From: Eunapius fragilis
Lineage: Eukaryota; Porifera; Demospongiae; Spongillida; Spongillidae
DNA: 64,000 nt
Assembly (NCBI GenBank): GCA_963681505.1
Contig: OY811981.1
Coordinates: forward strand, 186,001-250,000
Direction: 5' to 3'
The first letter of the stretch is position 1. Every line of letters begins with the position of its first letter. Shown here in pieces: positions 1,596 to 62,246 of the stretch. The position numbers were made by a program, and so were the translations under genes. The notes below the pieces were generated by a model that saw nothing but the letters and a program-made list of their open reading frames with translations, did not search any database and was not told the origin of the DNA.

Positions 1596-2742
1596 TTACA
1601 GACCTGGAATGGGGACACGACTCTCTTTGCTCCATTTAGTAATTGCATGAAGTATAAATTTCGCTTGAGGTTGCTGTGAGGTTTCTTTTAAAATCTGTAC
1701 TATATCTTTGAGACTTTCCCTTGGTTCATGACCTGCTATCACCATCTGAAATATACCTACACACGCCCCTCTCTTCCCTTCCCAGTACTCTGGGTTGGGA
1801 TCCAACCTCTCCAATAGGTGAAATGCCTTTGCTGCATAGTAGAACTGACCCATCTGACAAACATTGAAGTGAATAGCCATGCAGTTCTCATAGCACATAC
1901 CTTGTAGCAATCATTGGCTAATAGCAGAAGGAGATTGAAGGAATCACCTGATGTCTCCAGCTTCAAGTACAGCTCCCAAGCATTCTTTGGCTTCCTGTTC
2001 ATAATGACTAAACGAAATAACAGATGTTTAAGTGGATATGAAATGGGCGGGGCTATGGGCGGGGCTTACAGCATTTTGCCAACCAGCTAAGGTAGGTATA
2101 ATCAGCCTTGATCTTGTCCGAGGTTATTAACAGGAATATCTATTTTATACAGATGGTCTAAATGTGGTATATGTATGTCCCTGTTTATATGCTCACCTCC
2201 TCAGCCTCCTGAAAATTACCAGTCACTGCCTTAGCCTGGGCATAGTTGAAATTGAAAGTGTCATCATTGAAGAAATAGCTCTTATGGGACCAAGGAGAGT
2301 ACACCAATGAAAGGGTAATAATTGCTGAATAAGTGGATAGCTAACATTAATAAGTGGATAGCTAACCTTAATAGAACTGAGGTATATCAGAACTTCATCA
2401 AACTGATGCAACAGGAAGAAACAAGAAGCCATTGATTGACGTCCCGGGATTGTATCTGTAAAAACAGCACTAACAGGATGTTGACATCTCTAGCTCCACC
2501 CCCCATACCACACTCGCTTCCTGAAGTCCCCACCAATTGGTAATATTGCTGTGATAACTTAATATTCTCTTGCTGTGGGACAGAGAAGTCATGTTAGCAG
2601 TACTGAGAGTACTGAGGGGTGTCATGGCTACTTACTAAACCTCGCTCCTGACCCATAACTGCATTGGCTACGGCCTTCAAGATGTACTCATGAGGGCTAC
2701 GTGGCTCCAAGTCACGTATGAGAGCATATGCTTCATCAATAT

Positions 2743-24502: not shown

Positions 24503-25188
24503 TCATTGTGAGTTCAACTTCAGTTCTTGAAGCGACACTTTGAGAATAGATAAGCTTTGTCTAGCAAGTCCGCGGCAGTCATTGTCGCTATCATTGCTGG
24601 CGACGTCTTTAAAAAATCATAAAGTATTAAAGGTTAACACCACTGGCACAACACACATACCATTCAGCCATTGCACCACTTCTGTCAGCTCACTCTCCAG
24701 TTCACCAACGAAGGCAAAGGTGTGTGTAGCTTCCAACATCATCGCCATGGCAAAGAGGATACCCTGCCTCACATAGCTGTGCCCAGTGAAGCCACACGGT
24801 AACATAACGGTACACCTACATGTTTGGATGGTAGCGAAGAGCCCATAGAAAGTCCACCAGAGCAGCTGCCATTCTGGGAAGCAGTGGTGCGTGTGTGGCT
24901 GCATGGATGACCACACCCAACGTATGCAGTAGGCTTCCCAGTACGAGACTGTCTGCACCAAGGAGGTCCAGGCAGTTCAGTGGTTGGTCATAAGCTTGCA
25001 TCAGAGGGAAGAAGAAGAGTGGAGCCACTGGGGCAAACCTGTTAGGCACAGCAGTGGGAGGAGTCCTGACTGGGCCCTGGGATGGACATAAACAAAAGAT
25101 TACTGCAATTTAGCAAAAGAGATGCAATGTAACACATGTAAGGCTACCACACCACATATGTTGGTCACCATGGGTACACTACCCATGG

Positions 25189-25230
<42 letters not shown>

Positions 25231-28200
25231 CATGGCCACACACTGCACATGATCACATACACACACACCACAGGTAGCTCACCTTGGATATTACCCTTGT
25301 TTTGGCTTTCAGCCTCTCCCTGACTACACCCTCCCAAACTCTGCTTCCTGGACGTGATACCATCGCTGGTGCCTGAGTACTGGCCTGGGGACTTGATTGA
25401 GGTGTAGAAAGTTCTAGTGCTGCTGCTGAAATGACCTGTAGTGTAACCATGACAACCATTCAGAGGCATTCACTGATTTTCATGACCCCAGGACAACCAA
25501 CAATAAAGACTGCTACATAAGAACCATCAACCACAACCCACAGAGCTGCTTCTACTTCTTCCACCCCCCCCCCCCTTTGGTCCACCTCATCACCACCCTC
25601 CCTTGGTCCACCTCATCACCACCCTCCCTTGGTCCACCTCATCATGGTCCACCTCTCATATGATGTTAGGTGGTTTAAGGTAGAAGGTGTAATCTATACT
25701 GCATTTTGAGCTTTCTCCCTCTTCCCCCATCCCTCCCCCTCCCCCTCCCCCATCTGCTAATCCTAAGAAGCCTTAGAACATGAGAACAGTGTACAATCAC
25801 CATACAGCATTAAAGGGCTCACCTCCAGTATATCTATCCTCTGTCTGATACTGTAGTTAGGCCCATACAGTTGAGCAGTGAGGTAGGGAACACTCTGCTT
25901 GGGGCAGCTCACTGCCAGGGCAACCATAGCTCTGTGCCTCAGCCTTGCAAAGTCGCTCAGAGCATAGTTATCAGAGGTATGAAGCAACACTTTGGTGAGC
26001 TCTGTAGCCACCTCCCCCACGTCAGGGGGTAGGGCCCTCACCAATGACTCTGCTGCAGCCAATGCAGACTCAAAGTGGGAGGGGCTCTCAGGTGATACCA
26101 GTGCAGCTAGGCATGTCCTCAGGTATCGAGGAGGGAGCGGTTGATCCGAGGGAGGGTCTTCTCCCGAGGCATAGGGTATGAGGTCATCATCACTGAGGAG
26201 GACCAGGGACATGGGGTACAAGGTCATCATCACTGAGGAGGACCAGGGACATGATGGGGTACAGGGTCATCATCACTGAGGAGGACCAGGGACATGGGGT
26301 ACAAGGTCATCATCACTGAGGAGGACCAGGGACATGGGGTACAAGGTCATCATCACTGAGGAGAACCAGGGACATGGGGTATAGGGTCATCATCACTGAG
26401 GAGGACCAGGGACATGGGGTACAAGGTCATCATCACTGAGGAGAACCAGGGACATGGGGTATAGGGTCATCATCACTGAGGAGGACCAGGGACATGGGGT
26501 ACAAGGTCATCATCACTGAGGAGAACCAGGGACATGGGGTATAGGGTCATCATCACTGAGGAGGACCAGGGACATGGGGTACAAGGTCATCATCACTGAG
26601 GAGGACCAGGGACATGGGGTACAAGGTCATCATCACTGAGGAGGACCAGGGACATGGGGTACAAGGTCATCATCACTGAGGAGAACCAGGGACATGGGGT
26701 ACAAGGTCATCATCACTGAGGAGAACCAGGGACATGGGGTATAGGGTCATCATCACTGAGGAGGACCAGGGACATGGGGTACAAGGTCATCATCACTGAG
26801 GAGAACCAGGGACATGGGGTATAGGGTCATCATCACTGAGGAGGACCAGGGACATGGGGTACAAGGTCATCATCACTGAGGAGAACCAGGGACATGGGGT
26901 ATAGGGTCATCATCACTGAGGAGGACCAGGGACATGGGGTATAGGGTCATCATCACTGAGGAGGACCAGGGACATGGGGTATAGGGTCATCATCCCTGAG
27001 GAGGACCAGGGACATGGGGTATAGGGTCATCATCACTGAGGAGGACCAGGGACATGGGGTACAGGGTCATCATCACTGAGGAGGACCAGGGACATGGGGT
27101 ATAGGGTCATCATCACTGAGGAGGACCAGGGACATGGGGTACAGGGTCATCATCACTGAGGAGGACCAGGGACATGGGGTACAGGGTCATCATCACTGAG
27201 GAGGACCAGGGACATGGGGTACAGGGTCATCATCACTGAGGAGGACCAGGGACATGGGGTACAGGGTCATCATCACTGAGGAGGACCAGGGACATGGGGT
27301 ATAGGGTCATCATCACTGAGGAGGACCAGGGACATGGGTTACAGGGTCATCATCACTGAGGAGGACCAGGGACATGGGGTACAAGGTCATCATCACTGAG
27401 GAGGACCAGGGACATGGGGTACAGGGTCATCATCACTGAGGAGAACCAGGGACATGGGGTACAGGGTCATCATCACTGAGGAGGACCAGGGACATGATGG
27501 GGTATAGGGTCATCATCACTGAGGAGGACCAGGGACATGATGGGGTATAGGGTCATCATCACTGAGGAGGACCAGGGACATGGGGTACAGAGTCATCATC
27601 ACTGAGAAGGACCAGGGACATGGGGTACAGGGTCATCATCACTGAGGAGGACCAGGGACATGATGGGGTATAGGGTCATCATCACTGAGGAGGACCAGGG
27701 ACATGATGGGGTATAGGGTCATCATCACTGAGGAGGACCAGGGACATGGGGTACAGAGTCATCATCACTGAGAAGGACCAGGGACATGGGGTACAGGGTC
27801 ATCATCACTGAGGAGGACCAGGGACATGGGGTACAGGGTTATCATCACTGAGGAGGACCAGGGACATGGGGTACAGGGTCATCATCACTGAGGAGGACCA
27901 GGGACACTATACAATGTGCATGGAAGGTCATTGGGAGGACTTGTTGAGTCATGTGATTACTCATACCTATCAACATCAGTGTAGGAGGCAGTCCTGACAA
28001 GGCCCTCACCAAACCTGCCAGTCTGTGAAGAGGGTGGTGGAGGTGGAGGTGGAGGTGGAGGGACAGCTGCAGCTATAATGGCTTCCACCTCCTTCTGTAC
28101 AGCTGAAGGGCTACATGGAGAACTCATCCCCAGACCAAATCAACCAGCGCTCACAAACCTTGCCAATCTCTGCAGCTCTTCCACAGAAGCACTTGGTTCA

Positions 28201-30216
28201 TACTCAAATGTCAGCATATGTGTACCATCACCATCACCATCACCATCACCGCAGTCCTTGTGGTTTAGCCAGTTCATCAGGCGCTCACCTACAACCATGC
28301 CACACTGTCTGATTTCAGTAACAGGACTGTCGATGTGTGTCTGTATACCAGACATAACATAGCTCTGAAATTCTGCACACAAGAAACATATAATAATGTT
28401 CCTCATTGAGGTACAAGGTATGACGTACTTGATCTAACCAGAGTGATGTCACTTTCATCCAGATATTGGGGGGCTAGCATCAACAGCTGTGACAGCCACA
28501 TGTGCTGTCTATGGTCCATGTGTCGCAAGGCGGAGCTGTTGCCCCAGACATCCAGTAAAGCCAACAAGGCTTCAACAAGCATCGTTCGGGTCAGTTTGTC
28601 ACCTGACAAATAGCCAATCAGGTTGAAAAGAACCCGTCGTGTGTTTGGAACTTTGACTAGGAAGGCTTTGTGTGTGAGAAGAAACTTAACCTTGGGGTTA
28701 AGCAATATTAGATCACCCAGGAGCCTCCTCATGACAGTCGGTGGGTCAAGGGTCCTAAAAGGGTCAAACATTAGACATCTCCTTCCTTTCCAAGTATGGT
28801 TTAAGGTATGTTCTTTGCCTCATCACAATGTGCATCACTTGTTCCTAGGCCCCAGTCCCAACAGAGGACGTTGGCTGATCACTGATAGCAATTCATCCAT
28901 GAGGTGAGATCATATTCACAACATTATCTATACCACTTCATGTATGAATCACTAATGATCAGCCTCACTCCTGATTCAGACACATAAAGAACTGTCTGCA
29001 TACATCTGGAGCCTCTGGTTTAGCACTGCACAAAGTAAACCTGTTTGGCACACAACCAAACCTGTTTAGCACACAACCAAACCTGTTTAGCACACAACTG
29101 GCATGCCCGAAAACTGCACCTCATGTAAATGTGGGCAACACTTTGATGTATATGAGCAAGCTTTGGTGACTCACGGATTGGCATGTGTCATCACTGCATC
29201 CAGCACTGACTCCAGACTGCTGTCTGGTATATGACGGAACAAGGCCTGGGCTATTCTTTCCCACAAAGGGTCACCTTTGGTCTTATCTCCCAGGCCTGCT
29301 ATAACCACAGGCATCACCACATCTAAGCCAAAGGCACTGTTTATTAGAAATGTAACTGACAACATAATAGGGAGCCTCCCCCACCTTTCTGTCCAAGGAG
29401 TGCAAGCTTCCCTATCAGAGCTGCTGGAAATACAGTACTGCATGAAACACCATCTATGTTAAGAGAGATGGTGTGTTACCAATGTACATCAAAACATGAT
29501 TCCGTTCCATACCACCTGGTCCCCAGCCAATTACCACGCTTTTTTTTGTATAACTTGTCCCCAGCCCTACTCCTGCACCTGGTCCCCAGCCTTTCACCTC
29601 TAATGGCTCAGATCATCTGGTCCCCAGCCTTTCACCTCTAATAGCTTGATACAGCTGGTCCAGGGTCTTCATCAGTGTGTGGGCAAGTGCAGTGAAAAGA
29701 GGCGTTGGCAGAAGACTAGGTTCCAGGGAATGCCTGAGAGCATTTGAAATGAGGTCAGGAACACGACACATGCAGCCAATGATGTGCTCTTGTAGAGGCG
29801 TTAGCGTGGCGTTGACAGGTTGTCTACACTGCTCAAAAATGAGTCGAGTTGAGGAGAATAACAACTTGGCTCGTCTTGCAAGCCAGGCCGCGACGATGGT
29901 CCTATTGTGAAGTGCGATATTGTGTGGACGGTAACTAACGATCCAGTACTTACGGACATGTAGTGATATTCTCAACAATTATATTCAACTCATTATTTTC
30001 ACCAGCTGCCTGCAAAAGGTAGCCACATTGCTCACTTTCTACAGCACACGCTACTCGACACATAGAAGCACATAAGTTGGCGTGGAAACCCTCAAGCGAC
30101 TGCTTGTTCGAGTTCTGCAGAAAATGCACGCATTCCTTTGCAATATGATTCGCTTCTGTTGTGTCGGCACATTTATCAAAGGCTCCCACGAGTTCTCTTA
30201 CTCGGACGATAGCCAT
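24503..30216 (-). CDS. TELO2: Telomere length regulation protein TEL2
   Basis: Helical-repeat co-chaperone (TTT complex) that stabilises PIKK kinases such as mTOR, ATM and DNA-PK. Matching segments include GNSSALRHMDHRQHMWLSQL, CGMVVGERLMNWLNHKD, the acidic SDDDLIPYASGED, PPRYLRTCLAALVSPESP, ALSDFARLRHRAMVALAVS, YGPNYSIRQRIDILEV, PLFFFPLMQAYDQPLNCLDL, LGSLLHTLGVVIHAA and HSYVRQGILFAMAMML. The last exon (24503-24606) follows a 54-bp intron and encodes DVASNDSDNDCRGLARQSL, as at the family C-terminus. The intron at 26193-27966 consists mostly of 42 extra tandem copies of its own 3' splice site. The start (MAIVRVRELVGAFDK) diverges from SMURF by 220 bp. Confidence 0.93.
25193..25227. repeat. (CA)n microsatellite in a TELO2 intron
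   Basis: About 17 CA units, preceded and followed by related CCATGGTCAC and CCATGGCCAC words. Confidence 0.85.
26181..27905. repeat. 40-bp minisatellite, 43 copies, derived from a TELO2 intron-exon junction
   Basis: The unit core TCATCATCACTGAGGAGGAC repeats every 40 bp (43 bp in a few units), with two main point-variant types. I count 43 cores, including the authentic exon copy at 26184-26196. On the TELO2 strand each unit reads CCTGGTCCTCCTCAG|TGATGATGACC, that is polypyrimidine tract, acceptor AG and the start of the exon encoding SDDDL. The exon really used begins at 26192; the preceding exon ends at 27967 (DVD plus AG). All other copies lie within that intron. Confidence 0.95.
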
Positions 30217-30436: not shown

Positions 30437-35664
<5,228 letters not shown>

Positions 35665-60161: not shown

Positions 60162-62246
60162 TAGATTACCTCTTTGCCAGGACAGCATACAGCAATGCCT
60201 CTGGACCAAGATGAGCAATGGTGTCAAAGCACTCGTCCAACAGTGAGGATACAGAGCTTCGTGACCCCCTGTCTGCAGAGGATCCAGAGCGTACCCTCTT
60301 CATGGCTGCCATGTCTTGGGACAATGATGACGATGACGATGGCTTTGTTGTGGCTGCCCGCTTCCTTCGCGGCTCAAAGAACTGGTAGTATATCTGTGGG
60401 TCATCTTTGAACTGATGTTCCTTTAGAACTGCAGTGAGAAAGAGACATGTCTTCATCACACACCAAAATGAAGGACACAGCTTACCATGTTGTAGGACTC
60501 CCTCAGTAAGCAATGCCTGCCACATTCCTACCACAAGTGATCGGCTCCTGGTGGTAGACGACTGAGATATGACCCAGTCTACAAGATGTTTGCCACTACA
60601 GCAGTTCTTGTATGTGAACATGTTAACCCTCTGGTCCGTCATTAAGTCTGAAAAGTGTTCTTTAATAATTTGAACCAAAGTGGCTCCTGCTGCGGTTAGC
60701 TCAGACTCCTCCCCCTCAGGGGGTGTGTCTGAAACCTCTTCAGCCTTTGCTGCATCTGGTGTATCTGGTGTATTGTGAAATAACCTGTTCATCACATCCC
60801 TGTGGGTCTGTTCAGGCAAGATGTGAAAGTGATGGGGACATGTGGAAGTCACACCTGCTACCTCATATATCCTCTTCATCTGGTGAGCTTCAACACATAG
60901 CAGCTCAGTGAAGTCACATGTCATTATCATGGTATGCCTGCAGAGGGTATAACAGCACCACATGACCTCATGTGTCCCTCCCTCCTCCCCTCCTCCCTCC
61001 ACAGTGCATGTGTCCCTCCCTCCTCCCTCCACAGTACATGTGTCCCCCCCTCCTCCCTCCACAGTACATGTGTCCCCCCCCTCCCTCCATAGTACATGTG
61101 TCTCTCCCTCCTCCCTCTTCAGTACGTGTCTCCCCCCCCCTCCCTCCACAGTACATGTGTCCCTCCCTCCTCCCTCCACAGTACATGTGTCCCCCCCTCC
61201 TCCCTCCACAGTACATGTGTCCCCCCCCCCTCCCTCCATAGTACATGTGTCCCTCCCTCCTCCCTCCTCAGTACGTGTCTCCCCCCCTCCCTCCACAGTA
61301 CATGTGTCCCTCCCTCCTCCCTCCACAGTACATGTGTCCCTCCCTCCTCCCTCCACAGTACATGTGTCCCTCCCCCCCTCCCTCCACAGTACATGTGTCC
61401 CTCCCTCCTCCCTCCACAGTACATGTGTCCCTCCCTCCTCCCTCCACAGTACATGTGTCCCTCCCCCCCTCCCTCCACAGTACATGGGTCCCTCCCCCCC
61501 TCCCTCCACAGCAAATCACACAATAGAATATCTTGCCTTGATTTTCCAAATATAGCACTCTCACCAAATGAGTCACCTTCTTTTAAAAAGCAAATGCTGG
61601 ATGTCTTTGGAAAGAAGTTATAACAGACAGCTCCTCATCAAGGGTATGCGGGTAATTTGATATACCTTCTCATTGTCATTAGGGTCAACATCCAGCATCT
61701 CCAAGCTACCTGAGATAACAGCGTACCAGTAATATCCTTCATCACCAGGACGGTAGACTGCAAATGATATCGTGACGTGTCTTGCATTCGACACGGAACT
61801 CGACAAATTCTGTACCATCACAACTCCCTCCCTCCCTCCCTCCCTCCCTCCCTGCGCTCTAACTTACGCGTCACTTTCCCCAGAAAGGAGGTATACACCG
61901 CATAGCGACTCAGTTCCAGCAACACCTCGTCTGGGTAGTTTCCAAACAGTTTTAGTGACTGCGAAGGATACATTAGAACTTGCAGCACGCATACACTGAA
62001 CAACTTTTACCTTAAGCTTCGTAAATATCGTGTCCACGTCTTCTGCATTTCTCGCCGACGGTCTGCAAACCAACAAACCCTTTTACATGTACTGTACTAT
62101 ACCATAGTTTAACAATACCCCGTTTACAGACCACATCAAAACGAGCGACATATTCATGAATTTTGTCTCGTGTGTCGTGGCGTTTAGAGTTACGTTTCTT
62201 CGACTTACCGCTTCTCCAAGCACGATATCCAATGCCACGTCGCCAT
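56573..62246 (-). CDS. RAPGEF4: EPAC: cAMP-activated Rap guanine-nucleotide exchange factor
   Basis: Opens [20 protein letters not shown], matching the EPAC2 N-terminus. In order come cyclic-nucleotide domain A ([35 protein letters not shown]), a DEP domain ([20 protein letters not shown]), and cyclic-nucleotide domain B ([20 protein letters not shown]). REM, RA-like and RasGEF domains follow ([11 protein letters not shown] side missing in sense; sense DLVYQIYGRH-type CDC25 motifs), then [30 protein letters not shown] and [12 protein letters not shown]. The tail is [17 protein letters not shown], ending [15 protein letters not shown]. Two cAMP domains suggest EPAC2 (RAPGEF4) rather than EPAC1. 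cAMP binding releases autoinhibition and activates Rap1/Rap2. At least two introns use GC donors (56941 and 61536). A 30-bp minisatellite fills the intron 60960-61510. Confidence 0.93.
60087..60158. repeat. (CA)n microsatellite in an EPAC intron
   Basis: Interrupted CA tract between the DEP-flanking exon and the next exon on the minus strand. Confidence 0.85.
60968..61512. repeat. Minisatellite CTCCCTCCACAGTACATGTG in an EPAC intron
   Basis: About 17 units of 28-35 bp. On the plus strand each carries CTCCCTCCACAG|TACATG, which looks like a splice acceptor, but the host gene is on the minus strand, so this is fortuitous. The flanking minus-strand exons join AAATCAAG to GCATACC across it. Confidence 0.92.

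Follow-up and report, generated by a model that had tools for sequence, protein, structure and literature searches.

The window, that is, the whole stretch of 64,000 nucleotides of Eunapius fragilis DNA that was analysed (GenBank assembly GCA_963681505.1, contig OY811981.1, positions 186,001 to 250,000), sits on contig 11 of a 219-Mb genome of 24 contigs. Its minus strand carries the coding extent of TELO2 (24503..30216), which reads as one open frame of 808 amino acids in 11 exons, separated by GT-AG introns of, in order, 52, 247, 420, 56, 48, 1774, 387, 206, 43 and 54 nt. The stretch corresponding to exon 7 carries the only match to the Telomere_reg-2 domain in the genome (PF10193, E = 4.2e-30), and TELO2 is apparently single-copy. 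Both this domain and the linker's SDD motif, which mark membership of the TELO2 family, are present, and S-D-D is invariant in a nine-sequence TELO2 alignment. The sponge peptide aligns across intron 6 to residues 485-615 of the human TELO2 chain 7f4u_A (E = 4.1e-26), the junction peptide VD-S-DDDLIPY does so without gaps, and the DSDD motif falls on the exon 6/7 junction. Since the exon 6/7 peptide aligns to human TELO2 through DSDD, the gene model is sound. In a relative, P0004, whose 809 aa come from a contig of 2526 nt, the sequence is contiguous across the place of intron 6, with FVRTATAESDSDDDLVPY against LVRTASYTDVDSDDDLIPY in the sponge gene; this contig probably reflects a transcript, because 2526 nt are too short for introns of such size. 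No near-identical protein of the same animal was found among 57 TELO2 matches from the 7994 best candidates scored, the best being 55% identical over the searched region.

Exon 6 (27967..28110, minus strand) ends in ..T-D-V-D-AG in phase 2, so that intron 6 falls within the Ser codon of DSDDD (AG|T). Exon 7 (25823..26192, minus strand) begins with SDDDLIPY, has its donor at 25822 and is entered in the gene model through the exon-proximal acceptor AG at 26193-26194. The end of exon 6 at 27967 and the donor at 27966 agree with an earlier note on this DNA, as does its main claim that intron 6 carries 43 copies of its own acceptor together with the exon head, which is borne out by a table of the units and by the human TELO2 alignment. 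The stretch of intron 6 that is not covered by the array delimited by TRF, including the donor GTATGAG, occupies 27907..27966 (minus strand). The array itself, defined with TRF and the unit table, is a minisatellite at 26182..27906 (minus strand) with a 40-bp period, 42.8 copies and 95% matches. The acceptor TCAG|TGATGATGA, made up of TCAG and the exon head, occurs 43 times on the minus strand, with first exonic bases running from 27887 to 26192. The exact core pattern finds 41 of these copies in the window and none in 100 dinucleotide shuffles; the two that it missed each differ by a single substitution within the exon head. All 43 keep the AG. The 42 upstream copies (first exonic bases 26232..27887, minus strand), hereafter decoys, start 79 nt from the intron 6 donor, and successive acceptors are spaced by 40 nt in 37/42 cases and by 43 nt in 5/42. 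Each unit includes TGAC as a possible branch point, which fits TNAY (the stricter pattern YTNAY has no match in the unit), a pyrimidine tract and a single AG; each would look, as sequence, like a complete 3' splice site. A quasi-palindrome, GGTCCTCCTCA.TGATGATGACC, recurs in every unit across 26182-27906, centred on the acceptor, and is predicted to pair between units.

When exon 6 is conceptually joined to each acceptor, the copy at 26192 is the only one of the 43 that stays open into exon 7, and the stop met at the decoys overlaps the next acceptor, both as the earlier note had claimed. Its figure of 14 codons before the stop holds for 36 decoys and gives way to 15 codons in the remaining 6 of 42. 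The uniform peptide that it had proposed (S-D-D-D-L-V-P..) does not stand as such: L-V-P is encoded by 12/42 decoys, but the peptides are a mixture of SDDDL, SDDDP and SDDDS forms with one SDDN and one RDDD. The motif DSDDD is nevertheless kept ahead of the stop in 40/42. The last copy alone would run into the rest of exon 7 and yield TELO2, and any other choice would keep the remaining array and meet a stop at once.

Several other accounts of the array were rejected. A coding array was discarded because the period of 40 cannot be divided by 3 and every decoy reading hits a stop. A DNA search of the 219-Mb genome that skipped very common words found the unit at the TELO2 array alone, which argues against a dispersed repeat. 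Recursive splicing through a zero-length exon needs AG|GT, in which the GT after the acceptor restores a donor; the acceptors here are AG|TG in 42/43 and AG|GG in one, and the weak GTGATG that, by reading of the sequence, would be formed at a decoy junction would shift the frame.

The origin of the unit can be traced to the junction that it adjoins. It is composed of 30 nt resembling positions +1..+30 of exon 7 (24/30 positions), followed by positions -10..-1 of the intron; past +30, it matches 0 of the next 5 exonic positions. The local alignment of the unit to exon 7 scores 36, and none of 2000 shuffles exceeds 28. This homology and the presence of the last 10 nt of the intron indicate that the array is a duplicated junction, spanning about -10..+30. 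The 30 nt next to the exon differ from the unit at 6/30 positions, while the 42 units have a mean pairwise identity of 96%: the array is homogenised inside and the boundary copy is left out. The segment -10..+30 around the acceptor would thus have been duplicated in tandem and the array would have grown to 43 copies by minisatellite turnover. Many units alternate as 80-bp pairs near the exon and, given this pairing and the identity of the units, the array looks recently turned over. Exon 7 has L-I-P where P0004 has L-V-P, and the L-V-P of some decoys fits the capture of an older state of the exon, of which a single site proves little.

Two further scenarios may be considered at this point. One of them is that the copy number, or the whole array, is an error of assembly. 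Arrays can be mis-assembled, and one amphioxus mirage is reported to have been aberrantly assembled in the draft (PMC3087553). Yet the units carry several variants in irregular order, and large arrays are common in other sampled stretches of the same assembly, which makes this explanation highly improbable. The other is that intron 6 itself is of new origin, both of its splice sites having come from a tandem duplication, as in published models that derive introns from tandem duplications of boundaries (including PMC3087553). Against it stand the exon 6 donor, whose junction 24-mer has 0 further copies in the 2 kb searched on the intron side (at 20/24 identity), and the first 60 nt of the intron, which lie outside the TRF array; the gapped alignment of these 60 nt to the unit is too weak to speak for or against a decayed copy. 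We give it very little credence. Human introns born from tandem arrays, lying inside direct repeats and defined by matching 5' and 3' boundaries, were reportedly described by Zhuo et al. in 2007; matching boundaries of this kind are absent from TELO2 intron 6, where the exon 6 donor junction has no further copy.

The closest parallels to the TELO2 array are the mirage minisatellites of amphioxus, found in the globins BflGb6 and BflGb9, in Adh3, in TnC and in PGBD5 (PMC3087553, PMC3902484). The name was given to such repeats in Adh3, and the amphioxus authors cite PMC117041 for it (PMC3087553). The array, which the earlier note had treated as singular, is therefore of a kind already known, and other junction repeats exist in the same genome (see below). 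In both cases, a tandem repeat spans an intron/exon boundary, the authentic boundary adjoins the exon and AG or GT signals are present in many copies. The BflGb6 unit combines an intron end with an exon start, as in TELO2, whereas that of BflGb9 comprises a 3' exon boundary. The scale differs: the sponge array has 43 copies of 40 bp, while the two BflGb6 haplotypes have 3 and 6 units, each of 150-160 bp; units of the Adh3 mirage measure 10-72 bp (PMC3087553 and PMC3902484). Unlike in the amphioxus mirages, every decoy of the TELO2 array leads, by conceptual joining, to a stop. By its junction-spanning unit, its splice signals and its internal homogenisation, the array would qualify as a mirage. 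Human segmental duplications provide another comparison, with tandem repeats at exon-intron boundaries made up on average of four 30-bp units (PMC2812944). There too, boundary units of minisatellite size change the structure of genes, but they gave rise to repeat-retaining transcripts and new introns, whereas in TELO2 the donor lies outside the array and no decoy leads to a full-length frame.

Positions -20..+3 are identical to those of the productive site in 30/42 decoys, so the same 23-nt site is common to 31 of the 43 acceptors, and identity extends over at least -40..+12 in 3/42. Many decoys are thus indistinguishable from the productive site by nearby sequence. With 13 pyrimidines out of 17, the productive site ties for the highest count among the ten acceptors of the gene. 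The productive use of the last acceptor is suggested by what the copies encode. The gene is conserved against relatives and its frame is intact downstream of the array; since it is intact, conserved and the sole PF10193 match, we infer that this acceptor must be used enough to matter. We consider it probable that intron 6 is a 3' mirage minisatellite derived from the duplicated junction, that most productive transcripts use the exon-proximal site and that the array is a likely neutral or mildly costly by-product. This choice may be aided by the recognition of exon 7 with its donor at 25822 and by exonic sequence beyond +30, and some transcripts probably enter at decoys and would then be removed by nonsense-mediated decay (NMD), which is plausible since a UPF1 gene is present in the genome. 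The amphioxus mirages lend support to this proposal: from the Adh3 data and globin RT-PCR, their authors suggest no interference with regular splicing (PMC3087553), and the Adh and TnC mirages are said not to generate aberrant mRNAs, PGBD5 being added to the list (PMC3902484).

The architecture of the gene pulls in opposite directions. Five of the ten TELO2 introns measure 43-56 nt, which suggests short-intron recognition, while the introns flanking exon 7 measure 1774 and 387 nt. In transcriptome data, where two acceptors compete the upstream one tends to win, with a bias that is strong in short introns and weaker under exon definition, and alternative acceptors more than 12-20 nt apart usually have their own tracts and branch points (PMC9225289). 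Upstream preference combined with short-intron recognition would favour the decoys, against the proposal; weighed against the long flanking introns, mostly productive splicing with a real fraction of decoy use would be expected. RNA structure is of no help here. Predicted folding gives no advantage to the real acceptor, the A of the AG having a mean unpaired probability of 0.03 in decoys and 0.01 at the real site, and a structure exposing the latter alone is not supported, as this A is predicted to be paired in both. The folding of a 300-nt piece is somewhat more favourable than that of its shuffled versions (z = -2.17), of which 8 in 200 do as well.

The strength of the decoys could also be read in terms of regulated unproductive splicing: decoys would be used often, the ratio of decoy to productive use, set by splicing factors, would set the level of TELO2 through NMD, and the number of copies would serve as a gain control. 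The identity of most decoys to the real site over -20..+3, the pyrimidine count that the real site shares with the best of the gene and the tendency to prefer the upstream of two acceptors (PMC9225289) would all speak for it, as would the early stops of 42/42 decoys, each with four exon junctions downstream. Upstream acceptors that add sequence with an early stop are what the array would share with NMD-coupled alternative acceptors. The known cases of the latter have few sites and are backed by RNA evidence, against 42 putative sites deduced from DNA in TELO2. Nevertheless, a 40-nt unit yields early stops without any selection, and the decoys bear no sign of it. The 42 units differ at eight positions and by one insertion, none of them in the AG; these independent changes are too few to weigh much either way and, by our own estimate, such sparing of the AG would be expected often by chance. 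The absence of aberrant mRNAs reported for the amphioxus mirages (PMC3087553, PMC3902484) also weighs against regulation, which seems rather unlikely. Most likely, the array is no device but something that a minisatellite-rich genome produces incidentally, at a mild cost or none.

The decoy product, as conceptually joined, would comprise the N-terminal half of TELO2 and the motif without the C-terminal domain. In the human TTT complex, the N-terminal domain of TELO2 binds TTI1 and the CK2 site of the linker is held to bind PIH1D1; according to the same paper, TTT also binds RUVBL1-RUVBL2 without PIH1D1. A stable short TELO2 made up of the N-terminal domain and the DSDDD motif could accordingly be imagined to have a function of its own, as the motif precedes the stop in all but two decoys. 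Yet the stop is followed by four exon junctions, which should make the mRNA a target of NMD, and the binding of RUVBL1-RUVBL2 without PIH1D1 means that the motif is not the sole link; this product is very unlikely to have such a role. A more elaborate scheme takes into account that TELO2 with R2TP stabilises SMG1, a kinase of NMD. In it, the array would be a self-sensing device: when NMD is weak, short TELO2 would accumulate, compete with or support full TELO2 and feed back on SMG1. If this were true, TELO2 and UPF1, two NMD-linked genes, would be wired alike (see below), but UPF1 was looked at because of NMD and the pairing is no evidence of enrichment. This scheme is likewise very unlikely.

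Repeats spanning splice junctions were found at other sites in this genome. In UPF1, an exon that ends ..KLEELWR, with GGAGG|GTGAGAGG at its donor, is adjoined by a 19-bp donor array (locus L037:1945-2262, minus strand). It has a PF09416 match and aligns to the UPF1 chain 2iyk_A (E = 1.1e-16). The array contains GGGTGAGAGG 16 times, 15 of them with the full GGAGG, and among the seven donors examined, retention up to copies 3-7 leads to an in-frame stop. A second donor repeat of the same gene, with four copies of CATCTGGGAG|GTGAG counted by eye, lies at the exon ..NTSG, which also has a PF09416 match (L037:5766-5953, minus strand). In TELO2 itself, the exon 2 donor AGAG|GTGAAAGG is duplicated (29579..29661, minus strand; 38 bp x 2.2 according to TRF), with one extra copy of the junction 24-mer, and reading on to the second donor meets an in-frame TGA. 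In all, repeats span 2 of the 20 TELO2 junctions, all of which were checked, and 2 of about 9 UPF1 junctions checked by eye. TELO2 intron 6 is the sole acceptor array established here, and the other examples are at donors.

A scan of 273 kb for arrays with a junction beside a coding-like open exon returned 8 rows, namely the TELO2 acceptor, one UPF1 donor and six other candidates (three in locus L009, two in L014 and one in L021), and it missed the TELO2 exon 2 repeat and the second UPF1 repeat. The L014 rows look like a repeat inside a coding frame. Myosin genes were also checked at 70 approximate exon ends, from 35 Pfam pieces in 4 loci drawn from 87 genome matches. A repeated junction 24-mer was found at 8/70 of these ends against 46/698 donor- or acceptor-like sites in the same loci, which is no clear excess. 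One myosin donor (locus L041, near the Pfam piece 6901325-6901594) has 12 further copies of the tested 24-mer and may be a real donor array, the other myosin repeats seeming to lie inside the intron.

With these repeats, mirages, previously described in lancelets, are extended to a sponge, where they involve donors and one acceptor; they bear on the lengthening of introns and on the origin of new splice sites. A search of open-licence literature, aimed in part at sponges, turned up no sponge mirage. As far as could be seen, the novelty lies in the animal concerned, in the unusually high copy number and in the immediate stop that any wrong choice would meet. The choice of the spliceosome among equal acceptors has mostly been studied with few competing sites. 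One donor facing 43 acceptors in an apparently single-copy gene provides a natural experiment on this choice: the copy used could be identified from how much of the array a long read retains, and junction counts would measure the effects of distance and order. TELO2 is moreover a gene needed for cell growth in which, by conceptual joining, the last of 43 near-identical cut points alone gives the full protein.

Minisatellites are frequent in this genome. In a non-random background sample of 257 kb (the window, 20 stretches around kinase genes and 5 further ones), 139 arrays of period at least 10 cover 9% of the sequence. An acceptor-like unit is present in 11 of 106 arrays of period at least 20, against 8.3 (sd 2.5) with shuffled units, so such units were rejected as a rarity and the homology to the adjoining exon is the special part of the TELO2 array. 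The window also contains, at 60982-61511 (plus strand), an array of about 17 acceptor-like units CCTCCCTCCACAG|TACATGTGTCC with no exon recognised beside it and, at 32799-32840 (plus strand), a 12-bp repeat that encodes QEAV, in an open frame that has a WW match and is flanked by exons with HECT matches. At a locus with a PIH1 domain (L038:2445-2786 and 1629-1807, minus strand), 39-bp and 24-bp arrays lie in long open frames (ELPSRDDTQCGSH and EPTETEPR repeats) and may be in-frame minisatellites kept as coding. Contig 9 of this genome (G000) carries COX1 fragments with stops at about 9.625 and 9.675 Mb; this is a large contig other than the mitochondrial one, and the fragments are probably nuclear copies of mitochondrial DNA. 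The mitochondrial COX1, which was read with code 4 and has as its best match among the 120 listed (of 7999) a Demospongiae cluster at 94% identity, is on contig 24.
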